IMG/VR virus record: IMGVR_UViG_3300030106_001334
Coordinates: 1-28,564 of that record
DNA from: a virus
DNA length: 28,564 bases
Direction: 5' to 3' (one strand)
Shown here piece by piece: positions 4,743 to 24,436 of the stretch (positions are counted from its first letter, which is position 1; the number at the start of each line of letters is the position of its first letter). Made by a program: the position numbers and the translations under genes. Under the pieces are notes generated by a model that worked only from the letters and a program-made list of their open reading frames with translations, did not search any database and was not told where the DNA came from.

Positions 4743-7700
4743 ACTTATTCAAGAAGGACTTAGAAAAGGTACTGATGCATTTGCCGATACACTTGGAAAT
4801 GTTGGGAAAGAAGCCAAAGCTAAAATATATGGTCCTGATGCTCCAGAAGAAGATATAATTGTTTCTAAAAAAACAGGTACTATTACCGTTAAAGAACTTG
4901 GTAATTCTGAAATTGATGCTATAGACAAAGCAATCAAAGGAGTTGGTTTTAAGGGTAATGTTAATTATGGTTTAGATTTTAAAAAACTTGGAACGCTACT
5001 TAAAGATAGATTTGACGATGGTACGGTAGATGATCCTTTTTATAGTGATTTTGCAGCACAAGAAGTCTTTGGACTTATGCAACACATAAAAGAAAATAAT
5101 GCTGAACTTTTTAAATATTTTAGAAGAGAAAAAAAATCACTTATTGAACTTGCAGAAAGTGTAAAAGGTACACCTCTTGAAACAACAATAGCTACTTTTG
5201 TAGGCAGAGTACCAGGCAAAGACCCATTGCCACTACCTGAAGATACATTAGCTGGTCTTATAGCAAGTTATAGAATAACAGATGAATTATTAGCCATACA
5301 AAAGGAGCAGTTAAAAACACAGGATCTAGAGAGCAAAAAACTATTATCACAAAGGTTTGCTTTATTAGGTCAAATACAGGTTAGTTTATCTGCTTCTGTT
5401 TCTGGAAATGTATCTGAATATGCTAGAGGTATGTCTGTTGTCAGAGGTTTTGCAACTATGTCTGATTTTAACATAAATACTTATACTGAAAATTTAAATC
5501 GTATAATTGATGACTTACCAGTTAATGCTTTTGAATGGGATCAAATGTCACCAGCAGAGCATAATCTTATGGCTCTTCAATATTCATCGTTACACCCTGC
5601 TGGTAAAAAGTTTTTTACTAAAAATCTATATAATTGGATACCAAAAGCAGGTGCAAAATTATATGATACAATTATGGAAATATATGTCAATTCTGTACTT
5701 GTAGCACCACCAACACACATTGCCAATATAACAAGTGGAGCTGCGTTCCAAGCTATGTTAATTGCTGAAAAAGGTATGGCAGCAAGAATTGGACAGGTTC
5801 GACAGGGTATAGGTAGAGCTGTTGGAATGAATATGAATAACGCTGATAGAGTGCTTGTCGGTGAAGCTATGGCAGAAATACATGGTGTTCAAATGTCGTT
5901 GATGAAAGCATTTGGAGTTTTAGGAAGATCTTTTATCACAGGAGAAAGGTCAGATTTTCAATCTAAAATTGATTTAAGAGATTTACAAGCTATTGGTAAT
6001 GAAGAAAGTATCCCTGCAATATTAAAAAATCTAGGTCGAAAAGATTTATTTTTAAATGTTATTGATATTGTAGGAATTATGGCAAGAATGCCAGGTCGTT
6101 TTTTAGCATCTGAAGATGAGTTTTTTAAGGTGCTGTCTAGAGAAAGAGTTAAATACAGGGAAGCTTTTAGAAGAGCATCATTAGTACAACAAGAAATACT
6201 TAAAGCGAACTCAAGTGGCATATACTTAGGCAATAGAGAACAAGTACAAGAATTAGCTAACAATAAATTTTCTGAGGTATATGAGGATATTTTATTGAAC
6301 ACTAGTCAAAACAAACATGAAGATGTTTATCAAATGATGAAAGACGAAGCATTAGAAAGTACATTTCAAAATCCATTAGAGGGAATACAGGCTTCATTTG
6401 CTAAAATAGCTAATATACCAGCACTGAAACCATTTTTCTTTTTGTTTGTTAAAACACCTGTCAACTTATTTAATCAATCTGCTAACAGGGCATTTCCGTT
6501 TTCTCCTGTTTATAAAGCAATAACCAAAGGACCAGGTGCTGTTTCTGGTAAAGAATACGATGAAGCCTTGGCAAAGCTTGCAACAGGTTGGGGTATTTTT
6601 GTTACAATGCAAAGTATTATGCATTCTGGTATTGCTGACAACATAGTAAGGTTTGTTTCTGGTGCTGGATATGAAGAAGATTATAAATTAAAAGGAACAC
6701 TTGGTCCTAATTTTAAAGGTAAACTACGTCAAGCAGATACAGGTAAACAACCATACGCTATAGAAATGAAAAACGCAGACGGCAATTGGGAAAGCATTTC
6801 ATTACAAAGACTTGATCCTATATCTGGTACTATAGCTATGATGATAGATACCGCCTTAATGCTACAAAATATGCCAGACGATGAAGGTATGTTATCTGCT
6901 GTTACAGATGCTTCATTAGCCACTATATTTGCACTTGCAGAATTTTCATCTTCACAAACCTATTTACAAGGTATGTCTGATATTATGCGTGAATTTCAAA
7001 ATCCTACTGGTGAACAAGGAAAAGCCTTTGAAAGATTGGGAAGGTTTTTTGGTGGTAAGCTTGTTGATATAGGAACAAATGTAACTGGTTCTGCTATGGG
7101 TCGTATGTCCTTTGGTCTTGGTAATGCAGCAAATGAATATTTAGGTTATCCAGTTATAGGAGCTACATCTTTTACAGGTATGATGGAAAGAATGAAAGAC
7201 CCAAGAGGTAGCAATACTGAGTTAACAGAAATGCAAATGGGTAATTACAATAATTATAATGATATGCCATCGTTTATGGTTGGTGCGTTTAAAGCTTTAA
7301 ATCGTGCAAAAGCAAGAGACCCTGTATTCTCTGCATCTGTAGAACCAAGTTTAGATTATTGGGGTAATAATTTAATGCAAGGTGAAGGTAGAGAATTTAC
7401 TATAGATACACCCTTTGGAAAAGAAGTTGTTGTTAGACCAAGAATGGTAGTAGGTTTAGGTAAAAAACAAATTATAAAACCAAGTATAATTGAAGATGAA
7501 CTCCACAGAATAACAATGGCTGGCGGTCCTGTCCTTGAACCTCGTCATAGAAAATACATAGAGATAGGTGGAGAATATATAAACCTGACAGCAGAAGAAC
7601 AAACCGCATACAACAGGACTTTTAATTCTATAGATGAAAATGGAAGATTACCTGGTATGGTTGGATATAATCCAGAACTTACTGTCCAGAAAAAAATGGA

Positions 7701-7963: not shown

Positions 7964-10900
7964 ATGACCGATATAGTAGATGTAGCTCGACGGGTACAGT
8001 ATACAGGCAATGGCTCTGCCGGACCGTTCAGTTTTAGCTTCCAGGTCAATGCGACAACGGAGATAAAAGTTTTTGTTGGAACAACTCAAAAAACAATCAC
8101 AACGCATTACACTGTTAGCCTTACATCTTCAGGTGCAGGTTCAGTATCGTTTACATCTGGAAACTTTCCAACAAGTTCAGAAACGATTACGATTGTTTCA
8201 AGTGTTTCCCTAGCAAGATCCTCAGTCTACACTACAGGTGGCCCCTTGACAGCAAGTGCGCTTGAAGCAGACTTTGACACGAACATAATGATCCTTCAGC
8301 AATCTTCCCAAAAGGTTGATCGAGCGTTGGCTGCTCCAGAGTTCGATGCCACAACCATTGACATGACCCTGCCTGAAAAAGACAGCCGAAAGGGTAAGAT
8401 CCTTGGCTTTAATGCAACGTCAGGTAATCCTGAGGTCGTAGGAGAAAATGCAACAGTTACAACGATATTTAATGCTATTGGTGACAACACCTTAACACTT
8501 ACTGGGACTATTACTTACGGTTCTTTATCAGACGGTACAATAACAATTACGGCTTTTGTTGACGAAGATGATATGTCCAGCAATAGTGCTACTCTTGTTC
8601 CCACCCAACAATCAGTCAAAGCTTATGTGGATAGTCAAGTAACTGCACAGGACTTAGATGCTACTACCGATAGTGGGACAATAGCCATTGATCTTGATAG
8701 TGAAACATTAACTATTGCTGGTGGTGAGGGTATCGATACTTCTGCTACTGGTAATACAATTACAATCGCTGGTGAAGAGGCTTCGACAAGTAACAAGGGT
8801 GTAGCTTCTTTTAGCAGTACCTTTTTTAGTGTGTCTAGTGGTGCAGTTAGTTTAGTTGCAGCTCAAACAGGAATTACATCTTTACTGGCTACTGACATTA
8901 AGATTGGTGAAGATGACCAAACAAAGATAGACTTTGAAACCGCAGATGAAATACATTTCTACGCAGCTAATGCTCATCAAATTTTACTTTCTGATGGTGT
9001 ATTTCGGCCACAAACGGATAGTGACGTTGACTTAGGACACACAACTACACGTTGGAAAAATGCTTACATTGATACGATTACAACCACTGGTAATGTCAGT
9101 ATTGGTGGAGACTTAGACGTTACTGGATCATTTGATATGTCAGATGCCAACATTACAAACATAGGATCTATTGCTCTTGATACGATTACAAATGATGGCA
9201 GTGATATAACGCTGGATAGCTCTGGCACAATTATTCTAGATGCTGATGGTTCTGGTCAGGTTGAATTTAAAGATAATGGTGTTTCATATGGCTCTGTAAA
9301 TAGCAGTGGTGGCACAGGAATGAACTTGGTTGTTAGCCAAGCAGATGAAAACTTCGAGATATATGGAACAGATGGTTCAACTATTATAAAAGCTTTAGAA
9401 ATATCTATGGCTAACGATGGTGCTGCACTCTTTAAATCAAGTGTTACAGCTACTTCTTTCGTTGGTGCGCTGACAGGAAATGTCACGGGAAACGTGTCAG
9501 GAAATGCTGAAACTGTTACTATCACTGCAAATAATTCTGCTAATGAAACTGTATATCCTGTATTTGTAGATGGTGCTACTGGCACTCAAGGTCTAGAAAG
9601 CGATACTGGTCTTTCATATAATCCAAGTACAGGTCTTTTAAGTACAGACAGTTTAATTACTGGAGCGAGTACGTTTACTGGAAATGTTTCTCACAATGAC
9701 AATGTGAAAGCTATTTTTGGCACAGGTGGTGATCTAGAAATATATCATGATGGAGCAGGTTCTTACATCGATGACACTGGCACTGGTCGATTATATTTGA
9801 GGGGTTCTGATAGAGTGCAAATACAAAAATATAATAGCGACAGTGGTTTAATAGAAGATGGGATTACATTTTTAGAAGATGGGGCAGTTAAAATTTACCA
9901 CGATAACGCTAAGAAACTAGAAACAACATCTAGTGGTGTTACTGTTACAGGCGGTCTGACAGCAGCCACAGGTGCTTTTACCGACTCAGTTGACATTAAT
10001 ATTGCTGATGGAGATGCTGACAACGCCTATGCCCTGACCATTCGAAACAATGAAACGACCGACAGTCGTAGCTATGGTGTACAAATTAAAGCAGGGTCAA
10101 CATCAACTGATAAAGTTTTAGATTTAAAACAACACGATGGAACTAGTTTACATCAATTTAATGGAGATGGCACAATTTCTTTTGGGAATAATGTATTGGT
10201 GGGTAGCACTTCTACTTTAAGTTCTGCAAAACTTCTTGTGAAGGGTACAAAGTCAGGCACAGGTGGAAATGCAGGTCAATTAGTTGTTCTGGATGATACT
10301 GCGTATAGCACCACGGATAATGGTGGGGCCATCCAATTTGCAGGTAATTTTTATGATGGTGGTCAAGTTGTGTTTGCTACTGTCCAAGGGGTCAAATCAA
10401 ATAATACTGACGCAAACAATGCAGGTGATTTAATCTTTACGACCAAAGCTAACGGTGGGGATCAAACTACAAAAATGAGGATTAACGATGCTGGCGCAGT
10501 TTTAATAGGAAGAGATTCAGTAGGTAACACAGGAAATGGACACTCAATAAGAGGTGGAGATAGTGCTATCTTTAGTAGAGATGCAACTGGAGAATCAGTG
10601 CAAATTGGTCGTAATGCCAATGATGGACAACTAATCCAATTTAGAGATAATGGCACAGAGGTTGGAGATATTAGAGTAGATGGTACAACAGTTAGTTTAA
10701 CTGGTTTTGCAGGTAATCACGAAAGTTCTGGTATTTCAGAAAGCACAGAAGTAGGCACTGTTGTAAGTACAATTGATGAGTTAGATACTAGAAAGCTAGC
10801 TGATGGCTCTGTTGTTGACCATAAAAATCATGCTAAAATAAAAGTATCTGACAGTGTTGGTGATAAAAGAGTTTATGGAGTCTTAAATAAATTTGTTGAA

Positions 10901-11122
10901 CACAGCAGCGGAGTAACAAAAGCTCTTGTAACAAGTGTTGGTATTAGTTCTATCAAAGTAACAGGTGCTTGTGAGGGTGGTGACTTATTAGAAAGTAATG
11001 GAGATGGTACAGCTAAAGTACAATCCGATGACATCATAAGAAGTAAAACAATCGGTAAAGTAACGATTGGCAACAGCACGACAAGTGTAAAGCTTGTATC
11101 ATGCGTATTATATTGTGGATAA
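7964..11122 (+). CDS. Tail fibre with T7 gp17-like anchor
   Basis: The 1052-residue product begins with a T7-type fibre anchor (residues about 1-150: RRVQYTGNGSAGPFSFSF, later QQSSQKVDRAL and LPEKDSRKGKILGF), which attaches fibres to the tail tube. The rest is a long beta-rich shaft of Gly/Thr/Ser/Asp repeats, including DLGHTTTRWKNAYI, GGDLEIYHDGAGSYIDD and GNVTGNVSGNAETVT, all familiar from marine phage fibres. The C-terminal 130 residues (TGACEGGDLLESNGDG and following) look like a separate tip or trimerisation domain. It has its own gap of 34 bases upstream with a GTGGGG-type ribosome site. Base use is less A-rich than in the internal virion genes, consistent with modular exchange of the receptor-binding gene. 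Receptor is unknown. Confidence 0.88.
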   Translation: MTDIVDVARRVQYTGNGSAGPFSFSFQVNATTEIKVFVGTTQKTITTHYTVSLTSSGAGSVSFTSGNFPTSSETITIVSSVSLARSSVYTTGGPLTASALEADFDTNIMILQQSSQKVDRALAAPEFDATTIDMTLPEKDSRKGKILGFNATSGNPEVVGENATVTTIFNAIGDNTLTLTGTITYGSLSDGTITITAFVDEDDMSSNSATLVPTQQSVKAYVDSQVTAQDLDATTDSGTIAIDLDSETLTIAGGEGIDTSATGNTITIAGEEASTSNKGVASFSSTFFSVSSGAVSLVAAQTGITSLLATDIKIGEDDQTKIDFETADEIHFYAANAHQILLSDGVFRPQTDSDVDLGHTTTRWKNAYIDTITTTGNVSIGGDLDVTGSFDMSDANITNIGSIALDTITNDGSDITLDSSGTIILDADGSGQVEFKDNGVSYGSVNSSGGTGMNLVVSQADENFEIYGTDGSTIIKALEISMANDGAALFKSSVTATSFVGALTGNVTGNVSGNAETVTITANNSANETVYPVFVDGATGTQGLESDTGLSYNPSTGLLSTDSLITGASTFTGNVSHNDNVKAIFGTGGDLEIYHDGAGSYIDDTGTGRLYLRGSDRVQIQKYNSDSGLIEDGITFLEDGAVKIYHDNAKKLETTSSGVTVTGGLTAATGAFTDSVDINIADGDADNAYALTIRNNETTDSRSYGVQIKAGSTSTDKVLDLKQHDGTSLHQFNGDGTISFGNNVLVGSTSTLSSAKLLVKGTKSGTGGNAGQLVVLDDTAYSTTDNGGAIQFAGNFYDGGQVVFATVQGVKSNNTDANNAGDLIFTTKANGGDQTTKMRINDAGAVLIGRDSVGNTGNGHSIRGGDSAIFSRDATGESVQIGRNANDGQLIQFRDNGTEVGDIRVDGTTVSLTGFAGNHESSGISESTEVGTVVSTIDELDTRKLADGSVVDHKNHAKIKVSDSVGDKRVYGVLNKFVEHSSGVTKALVTSVGISSIKVTGACEGGDLLESNGDGTAKVQSDDIIRSKTIGKVTIGNSTTSVKLVSCVLYCG

Positions 11123-13912: not shown

Positions 13913-14427
13913 TGGCTAAAAATAATTTTGAAAAAAGTTTAGAGCTTGTATTACAGGCAGAGGGTGGGTTCGTAAATCATCCCAAAGACCCAGGGGGTAT
14001 GACCAACTTAGGAGTTACCAAAGCTGTGTATGATAAATGGATTGGACGTACATCTACTGAAGAAGAAATGAGAGCATTAAAGCCAGAGGATGTAGCACCG
14101 ATCTACAAAAAAAACTATTGGGATAAAATATACGGAGATAAATTAGAAAGCGGATTAGACTTTGCTCTTTTTGATTGGGCGGTAAATTCTGGTCCAGGTC
14201 GTGCAGCTAAAGCTATACAAAGAATTGTAGGAGCAACACAAGACGGTGCAATAGGACCAAAGACTATGCAGAAAATAGCGAACAACGATACTAAGTATAT
14301 GATTGAAAAACTGCATGACCAGCGACAAGCATTTTACCAAGGTCTATCAACCTTTGAGCATTTTGGTCGTGGCTGGACACGCAGAAATAAACATACAAAA
14401 GATGAAGCCTTAAATATGGTAGGCTAA
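13912..14427 (+). CDS. Endolysin, GH108 muramidase
   Basis: The 171-residue protein carries the GH108 signature: catalytic Glu17 in AEGGFVNHPKDPGGMTNLG at the N-terminus, then the family motifs YWDKIYGDKL and DFALFDWAVNSGPGRAAKAIQ; the C-terminal half (GAIGPKTMQKI, then KLHDQRQAFY) is the peptidoglycan-binding-3-type part. GH108 enzymes cleave the N-acetylmuramic acid to N-acetylglucosamine bond in peptidoglycan. There is no N-terminal signal or SAR helix, so it should depend on a holin, and the GTA-type holin lies about 650 bases upstream. Its TAA shares three bases with the TAG of the convergent LexA-like gene. Length and motifs are normal for the family. Confidence 0.93.
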   Translation: MAKNNFEKSLELVLQAEGGFVNHPKDPGGMTNLGVTKAVYDKWIGRTSTEEEMRALKPEDVAPIYKKNYWDKIYGDKLESGLDFALFDWAVNSGPGRAAKAIQRIVGATQDGAIGPKTMQKIANNDTKYMIEKLHDQRQAFYQGLSTFEHFGRGWTRRNKHTKDEALNMVG

Positions 14428-14657
14428 ATTAAATCTCTTATTATCTTGATTGCTCTTGGGTGAGCCTTCTTCGTCTCAATAAATCCTCGTTGAACAAGTT
14501 GATCTATGAGTGAAGCCATTGAAGCCCTGCTTTTGTGACCTGTGTGTTGCATAATTTCCTCATAGGATGGCATATATTTATGTTTACGATAGTATTTTTT
14601 CATAAACTTCAAGACTTGAACTTGACGAGGTGTAAGTGGGAAATCTTCCATAATCAT
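14424..14657 (-). CDS. LexA-type DNA-binding-domain-only regulator
   Basis: The 77-residue protein is the winged-helix domain of LexA and nothing else: PLTPRQVQVLKFMKKYYRK, then MPSYEEIMQHTG, recognition helix region KSRASMASLIDQLVQRGF and a wing ending HPRAIKII. By eye it fits alphaproteobacterial LexA (SKSGIHRLITALEERGF) better than the E. coli form. LexA normally has a C-terminal autoprotease/dimerisation domain of about 120 residues; here the gene stops after the wing, so it cannot be cleaved through RecA. Its ATG overlaps the RecT gene's stop (ATGA), so it is the last gene of the leftward operon. It probably binds LexA-like operators such as the site at 18233-18247; that link is inference. 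Confidence 0.82.
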   Translation of the reverse strand: MIMEDFPLTPRQVQVLKFMKKYYRKHKYMPSYEEIMQHTGHKSRASMASLIDQLVQRGFIETKKAHPRAIKIIRDLI

Positions 14658-18205: not shown

Positions 18206-18232
18206 TAAATGTTCTCCTTTGTATCTATAACA

Positions 18233-18247
18233 GTTCGTTTAATGTTC
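18233..18247. promoter_or_regulatory. Alphaproteobacterial-type LexA (SOS) box
   Basis: The sequence GTTCGTTTAATGTTC is an exact GTTC-N7-GTTC, the direct-repeat LexA operator known from alphaproteobacteria. It lies between the recombinase start and the predicted leftward minus-10, where a bound repressor would block leftward transcription. The exact pattern is seen; its use as a LexA site is inferred. Confidence 0.65.
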
Positions 18248-18255
18248 GTCTTTAC

Positions 18256-18278
18256 TGTACATATACCAGGATGGTACA
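18256..18278. promoter_or_regulatory. Imperfect inverted repeat, candidate operator
   Basis: TGTACAT at 18256-18262 and ATGGTACA at 18271-18278 form an inverted repeat with one extra base in the right arm. GTAC centres are 17 bp apart, and the repeat overlaps both predicted promoters. It is a candidate binding site for the RHH protein encoded 46 bases downstream. Confidence 0.45.
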
Positions 18279-18323
18279 TTGTGCAAGACCTAGATGTTAC
18301 TTTTTTTTGAACGAAGGTGAATT

Positions 18324-18473
18324 ATGAAGCAGGTACACATTAGAATAAACGACGAAGTCTATGAAAAACTTAAAGAATTAGCCGAGAAGGATCGTAGATC
18401 AATGGCTAGTTTGGCTGAGTATATTTTATCAAAAGGCTTGCACGATTTTAAAAAAGAGCTTGAAAAAGCATGA
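18324..18473 (+). CDS. Ribbon-helix-helix regulator (Arc/CopG type)
   Basis: The 49-residue protein starts at ATG 18324 behind GAAGGTGA. It has the whole RHH fold: a beta strand QVHIRIND, helix A EVYEKLKELAEKDRR, and helix B MASLAEYILSKGLHDF. RHH proteins dimerise and insert the paired strands into the major groove. As the first gene of the rightward operon, beside the divergent control region, it is well placed to autoregulate and to balance the two operons, as Arc does in P22. Its stop overlaps the next start (ATGA). Confidence 0.78.
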   Translation: MKQVHIRINDEVYEKLKELAEKDRRSMASLAEYILSKGLHDFKKELEKA

Positions 18474-18694
18474 CCCCGGAGTTCAGTCAACCAACACTTG
18501 CATTTTTGCTATTGGAGTTCCCTACCCTTGTTGATTGTCAGGTTGTCGTAAAGCATCTGGTTGGTTTCATCCATCACAATTTGTTCGTGAATTGTCACAA
18601 TCACGATGACAGCTATGCATTTTGGTTTGAACACTGGATGCAACACAATCATTTTCGAGAAGTTCCACCTTCAAGACCGAAGGTGCTTGAATGA
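18470..18694 (+). CDS. Unknown 74-residue protein, His/Phe-rich
   Basis: The protein shares a four-base ATGA overlap with the RHH gene upstream and with the nuclease gene downstream, which argues strongly for translation. It contains HHNLFVNCHNHDDSYAFWF and ends HFREVPPSRPKVLE. The many His, Cys and Asp residues in the middle could bind metal, but the spacing does not match a known motif. No family is recognised. Confidence 0.6.
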   Translation: MTPEFSQPTLAFLLLEFPTLVDCQVVVKHLVGFIHHNLFVNCHNHDDSYAFWFEHWMQHNHFREVPPSRPKVLE

Positions 18695-19029
18695 GGTTTA
18701 ACAAGTTCAATGCCCACAAAACCGAGGTCGATGGCATTTTATTTGACAGTAAGAAAGAAGCCAAAAGATATAGTGAATTAAAGTATTTGGAGAAAGCAGG
18801 TCAGATACACAACCTGGAGCTTCAACCCAAGTTTGAATGTATAGTGAAGGAGAAGAAGATATGTACCTACAGAGCAGATTTCAGATATTTCGACAAGCAC
18901 CAGAAGGGAGTGTTGGGTCAGGAAGGAACCATGGTAGTCGAGGACGTAAAGGGCTTCAAAACACCAACCTACAGGTTGAAAAAGAAGCTGGTCGAGGCAT
19001 TGTTCCAGGTGAAGATAACCGAATTATGA
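18691..19029 (+). CDS. DUF1064 nuclease-like protein
   Basis: The 112-residue product matches the DUF1064 pattern (PF06356): NKFNAHKTEVDGILFDSKKE at the N-terminus, then ELKYLEKAGQIHNLELQPKF, YRADFRYFD, VVEDVKGFKTPTYRLKKKL. Family members have a PD-(D/E)xK/Vsr-like nuclease fold; here FDSKKEA (Glu24 region), ADF and EDVKG carry the likely active-site acids and Lys. Phage members usually sit among replication genes and may resolve or nick branched DNA, but the reaction is not firmly established. GAAGGTG precedes the start. It overlaps the next gene by four bases. Confidence 0.85.
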   Translation: MRFNKFNAHKTEVDGILFDSKKEAKRYSELKYLEKAGQIHNLELQPKFECIVKEKKICTYRADFRYFDKHQKGVLGQEGTMVVEDVKGFKTPTYRLKKKLVEALFQVKITEL

Positions 19030-19322
19030 TTACAACAATTGATTTAGCCTTGGTTTTTCAAGAAATAACAAAAATTTCATTTACGGTTATGTATGAGGAT
19101 TGTCGAAAGGACAACGAGTTCATTCACCTGCGTTTCATGTGGACAGGCGTTTGTCGTTTCTTCAAGCGATCCTATCCTCAAATCGCTAAAACAATTAGAA
19201 AGGATCATTCGACTTGCGTGTTTTATTACAAGCGTCATCTAATGATGATGGACAAATACGACTGGTACTCAGAAAGCTACCTTCTTTTGTTGGATGACAC
19301 ACTGGATCGTTTTGGGGTTTAA
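19026..19322 (+). CDS. Stand-alone DnaA domain IV-like protein
   Basis: I start at ATG 19026 (ATGA overlap with the nuclease stop), giving 98 residues. Residues about 9-68 align with the C-terminal DNA-binding domain of bacterial DnaA: LHLRFMWTG-like HLRFMWTGVCRFFKRSY, then PQIAKTIRKDHSTCVFYYKRH. DHST at 60-63 matches the DnaA signature DHTT, and Arg36 fits the base-contacting Arg of DnaA. The AAA+ and N-terminal domains are absent, so it could bind DnaA boxes but not assemble an ATP-dependent filament. The next gene carries two perfect DnaA boxes, the likely targets. Whether it recruits or displaces host DnaA is not known. Confidence 0.75.
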   Translation: MITTIDLALVFQEITKISFTVMYEDCRKDNEFIHLRFMWTGVCRFFKRSYPQIAKTIRKDHSTCVFYYKRHLMMMDKYDWYSESYLLLLDDTLDRFGV

Positions 19323-20300
19323 ATGTTGGATATGCCACCAGATAAAACGTCCAAGCAAGTCTTAAGGGAAATAAACAAGGCTCGACAAGACATCCTTCGG
19401 CCACCCAAAGAACACAACACCTGTGAAACCGGCAAGGAACAGGATCAAGCATTCTCCGCATTCTTCAAAGCACCGAGCAGAGCCTTACAGGATAAACGAC
19501 TAGCGACAAGACCAAGGACTTTTATTATTCTCTGTGCCTTGTGTCAGTTTATTGGACCAACAGGATACTGTTATCCCAAGCAAGCACGGATCGCACGACA
19601 GCTAGGCATGAGCCAGCAAGGTGTCAGTAAACACATAAGATTGCTGGTTGATTATGGGTATGTCGATAAGGTTCGAAATGAATATAAGTTTCGTAAAAAC
19701 GGACATACATCAGCCACCTGGCGCATACTTTTTGATCCATCAATTGACCAAGAACAGGGGTACAAAAATACCCTCGAACACGATGAACGCTTTCAAGAGC
19801 AAGAAGCCGAGGAAACCATGAAAAAAGTAAATGAAAACAATAAGAAGAGTAAGTTATCCACAGAGTTATCCACAGGTAGGCAAAAACAGGCAAAAAAGAA
19901 GGAAAAAGAGGGTACAAAAACAACCCAATTAGGTTGTATGACCCCACAACCCAATGAGGTTGTACAAAAACTGACCAATAGAACTAATATATTTAATATT
20001 ATAGGAAAAGATATTTGTAAGCTTTATGCTCATTTGTTGGACGACATCGTTGGAGGTCGAGGTGAGTGGCGGTGGGACGAGAGGCAAGAGCAAATAGCTC
20101 AAGGGTTCTTAGACAAGGGAATGACAGTCGATAGCTTCAAGGCATCAGCAAAGAGAACTCTGTACAGTTGCAAGAAGGAGAGCAGACGACCACCCTACTC
20201 GCTTGCATTCTTTGAACAGGCCATGCCACAAACAAAGAAACCCACCTTGTCAGCTAGTGATGTCATCAAAAGAGTAACCAACAAGAGTAAAATAAAATGA
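19323..20300 (+). CDS. Replication initiator with N-terminal winged helix and internal origin
   Basis: The 325-residue protein has an N-terminal winged helix at about 63-137 (TFIILCALCQFIGPTGYCYP, ARIARQLGMSQQGVSKHIRL, DYGYVDKVRNEY), a polar Lys/Glu/Thr-rich linker (about 150-215) and a helical C-terminal domain (about 228-310, KLYAHLLDDIVGG, SAKRTLYSCKKES). This is the layout of lambda O-like and plasmid-type initiators, where the N-terminus binds iterons and the C-terminus recruits the helicase. The linker is encoded by the DnaA boxes and iterons listed separately. No phage helicase gene is in the window, so host DnaB is the probable partner. It starts directly after the DnaA-like gene's stop; the next gene overlaps it by four bases. 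Confidence 0.75.
   Translation: MLDMPPDKTSKQVLREINKARQDILRPPKEHNTCETGKEQDQAFSAFFKAPSRALQDKRLATRPRTFIILCALCQFIGPTGYCYPKQARIARQLGMSQQGVSKHIRLLVDYGYVDKVRNEYKFRKNGHTSATWRILFDPSIDQEQGYKNTLEHDERFQEQEAEETMKKVNENNKKSKLSTELSTGRQKQAKKKEKEGTKTTQLGCMTPQPNEVVQKLTNRTNIFNIIGKDICKLYAHLLDDIVGGRGEWRWDERQEQIAQGFLDKGMTVDSFKASAKRTLYSCKKESRRPPYSLAFFEQAMPQTKKPTLSASDVIKRVTNKSKIK
19854..19862 (+). promoter_or_regulatory. DnaA box 1 (TTATCCACA)
   Basis: A perfect match to the bacterial DnaA box consensus TTATNCACA. It encodes Leu-Ser-Thr of the initiator linker. The second box follows with a 12-base repeat length, so both face nearly the same side of the helix. Confidence 0.75.
19866..19874 (+). promoter_or_regulatory. 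DnaA box 2 (TTATCCACA)
   Basis: A second perfect consensus DnaA box in the same orientation, 12 bases after the first. It encodes a second Leu-Ser-Thr, so the duplication is visible in the protein as LSTELSTG. Confidence 0.75.
19878..19897 (+). repeat. Tandem 10-base repeat AGGCAAAAA(C/A)
   Basis: AGGCAAAAAC at 19878-19887 is followed at once by AGGCAAAAAA at 19888-19897. The ten-base period places the A-tracts on one face of the helix, which would bend the DNA. It lies between the DnaA boxes and the palindromic iterons. Confidence 0.6.
19921..19964. repeat. Two palindromic iterons
   Basis: CAACCCAATTAGGTTGTA (19921-19938) and CAACCCAATGAGGTTGTA (19947-19964) differ by one base and are 26 bases apart. 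Each is a palindrome of the form CAACC-N6-GGTTG. They are probably the binding sites for the winged-helix domain of the initiator. Confidence 0.7.
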
Positions 20301-20578
20301 CTGTTCATAACTTAGAGGTTCGTTTACATTGTGTACATCTGCTAAATTACGTACAAAAAATAATGCAATCTTTTTACACGATGTCCACGACCCCACCAAG
20401 AAAAAACGACCTTACGCCCCCCCCCGTTGCTAAGTATAGTAGGGGTATCCCACAAAACTTTTTCCAAGATTTCGTCTGTTGCCTTTGCGGTAAGGACGCT
20501 ACTTTATCTCATGGTCAGACTGATAGTTTGTACTGCACAGAACATCATCCTGATTGGCAGAAAATCAAAGAAAGTTAG
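20297..20578 (+). CDS. Small zinc-finger-like protein with C9 tract
   Basis: The 93-residue frame starts with an ATGA overlap with the initiator; a later ATG at 20381 is an alternative start without a clear ribosome site. Residues 61-84 contain CLCGKD-type CxxC (Cys61, Cys64) and, 16 residues on, CTEH (Cys80, His83), a C2-CH zinc-binding arrangement. The run of nine C at 20417-20425 encodes Thr-Pro-Pro-Pro; a one-base slip here would remove the zinc motif. The function is unknown; a small regulator or a replication accessory is plausible from its position. Confidence 0.6.
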   Translation: MTVHNLEVRLHCVHLLNYVQKIMQSFYTMSTTPPRKNDLTPPPVAKYSRGIPQNFFQDFVCCLCGKDATLSHGQTDSLYCTEHHPDWQKIKES

Positions 20579-23967: not shown

Positions 23968-24436
23968 AGATTTAGAGAAAGCTATGAAAATGGACGGCAT
24001 ATTTAGCCGGTTAGTCCCTTTTGATCCCTTTCATCTTACCTTAATGGAATATAGACCCCTCGATGAAGCTGTCCTTTCGGCCAATTTAGACTTCATGGTA
24101 ACGGATGGTTTGTCCTTTTCAGCCTTTCATAGAAACAACTGCATCCTTTGTTTTGGCATACAACCCATTTGGAAAGGCAACGCTGAGATTTGGATGCTTG
24201 TGAATAAAAATATTGGACAGGATCGGTTTGTTTTTCATAAGGCAGCCAAGCGATTATTCCCCTTTATTGGCAAATGTTTACAACTCGTTCGCTTACAATG
24301 CCATGTCTGTTCAGAGAATGTTCAGGCTACCAAATGGATTGAGAAAATGGTATTTAATCAGGAAGGTTTATTAAAGCATTACGGGCCAGAGGGACGGGAT
24401 TACTTCATGTATGCAAGATACTTCAAGGGGGAATAG
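23945..24436 (+). CDS. gp13-like GNAT-fold phage protein
   Basis: The 163-residue product has CILCFGIQPIWKGNAEIWM followed by QDRFVFHKAAKRLFPFIGK and CSENVQATKWIEKMVFN, the pattern of T7 gp13-like (DUF2833) proteins with an acetyltransferase fold, in which an initial 'CFGI-P---G-(A/E)-(I/V)W(M/L)' strand leads to a helix and the final 'A-KW(I/L)-K--F'. In T7, gp13 acts in virion assembly; an acetyl-transfer reaction is not shown. The start is uncertain (23945, 23954 or 23984). It lies between terminase and portal as often in podoviruses. Confidence 0.72.
   Translation: MILMFLPRDLEKAMKMDGIFSRLVPFDPFHLTLMEYRPLDEAVLSANLDFMVTDGLSFSAFHRNNCILCFGIQPIWKGNAEIWMLVNKNIGQDRFVFHKAAKRLFPFIGKCLQLVRLQCHVCSENVQATKWIEKMVFNQEGLLKHYGPEGRDYFMYARYFKGE

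Follow-up and report, generated by a model that had tools for sequence, protein, structure and literature searches.

A phage-encoded stand-alone DnaA domain IV linked to a replication initiator gene that carries a candidate iteron-type origin

The origin of phage lambda lies within the gene of its initiator, O, as the candidate origin described here lies within rep. Its palindromic iterons stand beside an AT-rich stretch (PMC5043065), an arrangement shared by our locus, whose Rep has O-like PHROG matches; lambda O differs in that no phage-encoded DnaA domain is used. RK2 oriV is composed of DnaA boxes, iterons and a DNA-unwinding element (DUE) (PMC4980987). Our locus presents these three elements in equal order and an initiator with a winged-helix domain, but departs from RK2-type iteron origins in that the origin would lie inside the initiator gene, the iterons are palindromic and the replicon encodes a DnaA domain of its own. 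Recruitment of DnaA domain IV (DnaA_C) by a mobile element is also seen in the REP-associated tyrosine transposases with a Bac_DnaA_C tail, although there the domain is fused to a HuH endonuclease (PMC6006769) and in the phage it is a separate protein. Other phages have short stand-alone DnaA_C proteins that already bear an annotation, among them PHROG 27829 (‘DnaA-like replication initiation protein’), Flavobacterium phage tooticki6-1 gp026, Cellulophaga phage phi46:1 gp40 and Olleya phage Harreka_1 gp24. These resemble the protein described here, but no annotated rep adjoins them in the three records examined. The literature searched, which left subscription papers mostly outside it, contained no function for the annotated phage proteins and no experiments on a DnaA domain IV encoded by a phage. 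What is new is the conserved linkage of DnaA_C to a rep gene carrying a candidate origin of boxes, iterons and AT-rich DNA.

The window, meaning the whole stretch of DNA that was analysed, is a virus record 28,564 bases long. Its structural and packaging genes are podovirus-like and include those for a terminase large subunit, a small terminase subunit (PF03592), a T7-type capsid assembly protein (PF05396) and a GH108 lysin. The terminase shares 65% identity with that of Methylophilales phage MEP301, a cultured marine relative that lacks genes for DNA and RNA polymerase and relies on host replication (PMC8024684), and we describe the contig as a marine-type phage. Two scans of genome contigs found no relative. 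The leftward arm contains YqaJ and RecT recombination genes and a serine recombinase. The rightward cassette begins at 18324 with a ribbon-helix-helix (Arc/CopG-like) protein of 49 aa (18324..18473, + strand; Pfam RHH_5, 1.7e-7; PHROG Arc-like repressors), followed on the same strand by a 74-aa protein without a Pfam or PHROG match (18470..18694), a DUF1064 protein assigned to the PHROG ‘Holliday junction resolvase’ (18691..19029; PF06356, 4.4e-22; phrog_190, 2e-34), the 98-aa DnaA_C protein (19026..19322) and Rep (19323..20300), with SSB further on. Rep is a winged-helix (HTH_36) initiator of 325 aa that is lambda-O-like and matches the PHROG ‘replication initiation protein’ (PF13730, 9.7e-12; phrog_270, 2e-10). 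No lambda P-like loader was identified in the contig. The ATG of the DnaA_C gene at 19026 overlaps the stop codon of the DUF1064 gene (ATGA), and the ATG of rep abuts the TAA of DnaA_C (TAAATG); these junctions indicate that the three genes are probably translated together.

A preliminary description of this DNA had read the 98-aa ORF, with DHST at residues 60-63, as domain IV of DnaA without the ATPase domain. The ORF is real and was placed exactly, the motif is present at those residues, and the assignment to a stand-alone domain IV is confirmed by the homologue profile, the syntenic relatives and the predicted fold. Taken singly, the sequence matched Pfam PF08299 (Bac_DnaA_C) with E 0.0022 and 18.4 bits, below the cut-off of 31.5, a match that is suggestive only. 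Syntenic homologues in the related contigs L006 and L007 scored about 36-37 bits on PF08299 and lie above the cut-off, as does that of L259, and the DnaA_C proteins of a third clade (L091-type) scored 26-28 bits. A profile of 15 homologues matched domain IV of E. coli DnaA (1j1v) at 7.6e-9 and that of M. tuberculosis (3pvp) at 7.5e-8 in PDB. Comparison of a predicted structure with domain IV, a check that the preliminary description had named, was carried out with AlphaFold on the 15-homologue alignment, giving a five-helix model of middling confidence (pLDDT 74, pTM 0.65) in which residues 17-27, beside the R399-type loop, fall below pLDDT 50. The five best PDB matches to this model were all DnaA (Z 11.4, 10.3, 9.3, 9.2 and 9.0), and the next was DeoR at 6.1; Foldseek with the same model was weaker (E 0.14, probability 1.00). 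An AlphaFold model of the single sequence was poor (pLDDT 47) and was discarded.

The protein shares with DnaA domain IV (PF08299; 1j1v, 3pvp) the fold, a helix-turn-helix (HTH) with the DHST/DHTT signature, a basic loop and a proline before the HTH. It differs in its length of 98 aa without domains I-III, in a structural sequence identity of 13-20% and in the low score of the lone sequence. Searches with that sequence returned chance matches only from PDB (phmmer), no match in 50,697 phage records (tblastn) and no PHROG match up to E 5, PHROG 27829 included; the relatives L091 and L119 matched this PHROG at 0.02 and 0.00078, respectively. Neither the contig nor any of five relatives contained the DnaA AAA+ domain (PF00308), which was detected in 14 of 14 control genomes; this result bears out the claimed lack of an ATPase domain. 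Genome searches with PF08299 miss the 98-aa protein itself, and absences of diverged relatives by such a search are weak.

One residue assignment of the preliminary description did not hold. Arg36, proposed there as base-contacting, aligns in the profile alignment with E. coli R407 and not with R399, the residue inserted into the minor groove (PMC5742627). Bases are contacted in DnaA by positions 399, 423, 432-435 and 438-439 (PMC5043019). At these positions the phage protein has P51 (423), K59 (432), D60/H61 (433, 434) and S62 (435), the last of which is T in E. coli DnaA. A basic residue, R27 or K28, lies at the 399 loop, its exact correspondence to R399 being uncertain, and positions 438-439 are not conserved. 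Most of the base-reading set is thus kept, and binding to TTATCCACA is predicted only. In most members of the L091 clade these recognition positions have drifted, with P423 replaced by N or K, T435 by A and T436 by S; the DnaA_C of L259 has an intact set (P, KDHTT), and its rep has two boxes. Perfect boxes occurred in 3/4 distinct loci whose proteins have P423 and T436 and in 1/6 of those with N/K and S, a difference that is not significant (Fisher P 0.19) among loci that are related to each other.

The rep gene contains two perfect DnaA boxes, as had been claimed of the neighbouring gene. Both read TTATCCACA and form a tandem pair on the + strand with a 12-bp period (19854..19862 and 19866..19874). 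They are followed, also on the + strand, by two 18-bp palindromic iterons of the form ACAACC-N6-GGTTGT, 26 bp apart, which are the presumed Rep dimer sites: ACAACCCAATTAGGTTGT at 19920..19937, which is kept in relatives, and ACAACCCAATGAGGTTGT at 19946..19963. Relative to 19323 the two iterons lie in different reading frames, which argues that they are preserved as DNA and not as peptide. A stretch with 87% A+T in 30 bp (19980..20009, +) is a candidate DNA-unwinding element. The whole occupies the linker of rep, between the winged-helix part and the C-terminal part, and is recognisable as an iteron-type origin layout. GC skew tracked gene direction and did not locate the origin position.

By synonymous recoding, two perfect boxes within this rep are unusual (P 0.0015), and the tandem arrangement more so (1.5e-4). 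Perfect boxes were found in 6 of 12 distinct genes of the rep subfamily against 0.59 expected under the same procedure (P 5e-6). The palindromes are conserved in L004 and L005 and recur as variants in L006, L007, L011 and L247, and the third clade has an iteron set of its own (GTCAAC..GTTGAC, period of about 33 bp). Where the distance was measured (the contig, L006, L007 and L260), the box lies 11-57 bp upstream of an iteron, and the order of box then iterons is the same in L004, L247, L256 and L259. In the rep of L259, two minus-strand boxes are followed by four iterons and finally by an AT-rich end; the rep of L256 has one extra box, which lies close to its beginning and outside the origin. 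The boxes of L006, L256, L259 and L260 lie on the strand opposite to that of the contig and encode a different peptide, so that what is shared is the DNA.

An enrichment of DnaA boxes over the whole contig was rejected, with 5 seen against 5.05 expected (TTWTNCACA). A third perfect TTATCCACA lies at 11114-11122 (-), at the extreme end of a long gene (7964-11122). The TTATTCACA box at 24199-24207 (-) falls in the gene after terminase and is also found, in an apparently homologous place, in L004 (4037) and L005 (4610), the latter having it despite the loss of the boxes in rep.

A search for the neighbours of homologues in other phages tied DnaA_C to rep. DnaA_C lies upstream of rep in 15/15 contigs of the rep subfamily with readable upstream DNA, in some with one gene between, and six further contigs begin too near rep for the upstream side to be scored. 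The usual gene order is DUF1064, DnaA_C, rep. The reps of L006 and L007 are 37% identical to that of the contig. In an unrelated contig of 78.6 kb (L119), the genes for RusA, a rep and DnaA_C are consecutive. Among pairs of relatives' DnaA_C genes with measurable dS, dN/dS was 0.07-0.21, indicating purifying selection; the pair of the contig and L005 (65% identity) gives no ratio, dS not being estimable. More distant reps with a DUF1064 neighbour (L010-L013) have no DnaA_C, some having other small genes there; in MEP301 the rep is short and of HTH type, and DnaA_C is absent. On these comparative grounds the DnaA_C gene is a replication-linked accessory, since related cassettes (L010-L013, MEP301) manage without it and perfect boxes are missing from several reps that have DnaA_C. 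Some members of the third clade (L095, L116, L253 and L254) have a PAPS-reductase-like gene (FSGGRTSAYMLF) between DnaA_C and rep.

The further claim that the protein and the boxes are a functional pair stands in part: a domain IV does adjoin a box-bearing rep with an origin layout, but obligatory pairing fails. That DnaA_C and boxes always occur together was rejected from both sides, by DnaA_C without boxes and by boxes without DnaA_C. A rep without a perfect box accompanies DnaA_C in L005, L022, L113, L115-L118 and L250, and most of the third clade has no perfect box in rep; in L005, DnaA_C was retained and the box segment lost. Conversely, the rep of L156 has tandem boxes and iterons, and no DnaA_C was found within the 11.5 kb examined, which suggests that the boxes can serve host DnaA. 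Tandem box pairs from 120 viral stretches were also inspected, and the flanking sequence examined held a DnaA_C ORF in none of them (0/120).

We propose, with a confidence that comes close to an even chance, that DnaA_C works with Rep at the rep-embedded origin as an origin-binding accessory that supplies box binding without a motor. In the manner of lambda O, dimers of Rep would occupy the iterons and melt the AT-rich stretch, and DnaA_C would bind the DnaA-type boxes beside the iterons and bend or stabilise the complex. The phage origin would then need less host DnaA, or none. As an inherent side effect, DnaA_C would compete with host DnaA for these boxes and may keep it off them. In iteron plasmids DnaA binding is required and the AAA+ domain is dispensable (PMC5043065), so that a DnaA without its motor could suffice there. 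DnaA_C is unlikely to recruit DnaB directly, as it has neither domain I nor domain III, which serve DnaB contact and DNA opening; without them DnaA_C alone cannot perform either step in the way that DnaA does. Recruiting the host machinery, blocking host initiation and marking the origin, the three roles offered in the preliminary description, cannot be separated by sequence. A broader version, possible but doubtful in our judgement, is that the phage lineage's own motor-less DnaA replaces the box binding that plasmid and phage origins otherwise borrow from the host, in which case the recognition helix and the rep boxes would change together and the origin would be independent of the host DnaA cycle.

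The protein could instead act against the host, occupying boxes at host oriC or DnaA-regulated promoters, blocking initiation and freeing DnaB and polymerase; the boxes in rep would then serve host DnaA or titration/autoregulation. A binding domain without domains I and III has the shape of a dominant negative, such an inhibitor would also work in phages without rep boxes (L091-type clade), and phages are known to attack initiation, an example being the action of lambda P on DnaA that is cited in PMC4776307. We nevertheless consider this unlikely, as the gene is fixed beside rep in the replication cassette and not among takeover genes, likewise in the unrelated L119, and as the drift of recognition residues in most of the L091 clade would be odd if a conserved host box were the target. 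The same drift speaks for a further reading, in which the boxes are there for host DnaA co-initiating with Rep, as in RK2 or P1, and DnaA_C has moved to another target, its linkage being only inherited. Reps of the L156 type, with tandem boxes and iterons and no DnaA_C found in the sequence examined, and the tandem boxes common in viral contigs without DnaA_C agree with such a history. The contig's own protein, however, retains most of the base-contact set, and L259 couples an intact set (P, KDHTT) with two boxes; we give this explanation a low probability.

Regulation of transcription in the early operon is an improbable role to a similar degree. DnaA_C would bind box-like sites and tune rep expression, with the boxes inside rep as a roadblock. 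DnaA is a transcription factor as well as an initiator, small HTH proteins are mostly regulators, and DnaA_C seems translationally coupled to rep. Against this, no DnaA box (<=1 mismatch) lies near the start of the cassette (18206-18323), a promoter scan gave nothing above chance, and the perfect boxes stand in mid-rep beside the iterons and not at a promoter.

If DnaA_C is an origin-binding accessory, a replicon that pairs its initiator with the DNA-binding domain of DnaA alone would offer a natural experiment on the contribution of DnaA to iteron replicons. DnaA_C would also allow a phage to replicate independently of the host cell cycle. The site within rep is a concrete candidate origin for the phage group of MEP301.

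Several further observations concern the surroundings of rep and the leftward genes. A run of nine C at 20417-20425 lies inside the small ORF after rep (20297-20578) and is possibly slippery or sequencing-sensitive. Directly 3' of a related rep in L150, a small ORF (6835-7026) contains the peptide MDNLVDNTVDNPVDNPVDNP, suggestive of a row of DnaA boxes. No CTGT-N8-ACAG site was found within the 28,564-nt window. A protein of 77 aa encoded at 14424-14657 (-) consists of the LexA DNA-binding domain alone (PF01726, 50 bits), without the peptidase domain. Most of the relatives with DnaA_C that were examined have it, as do some related phages that lack DnaA_C. With it, this phage group has two DNA-binding domains that come from host master regulators and stand alone.
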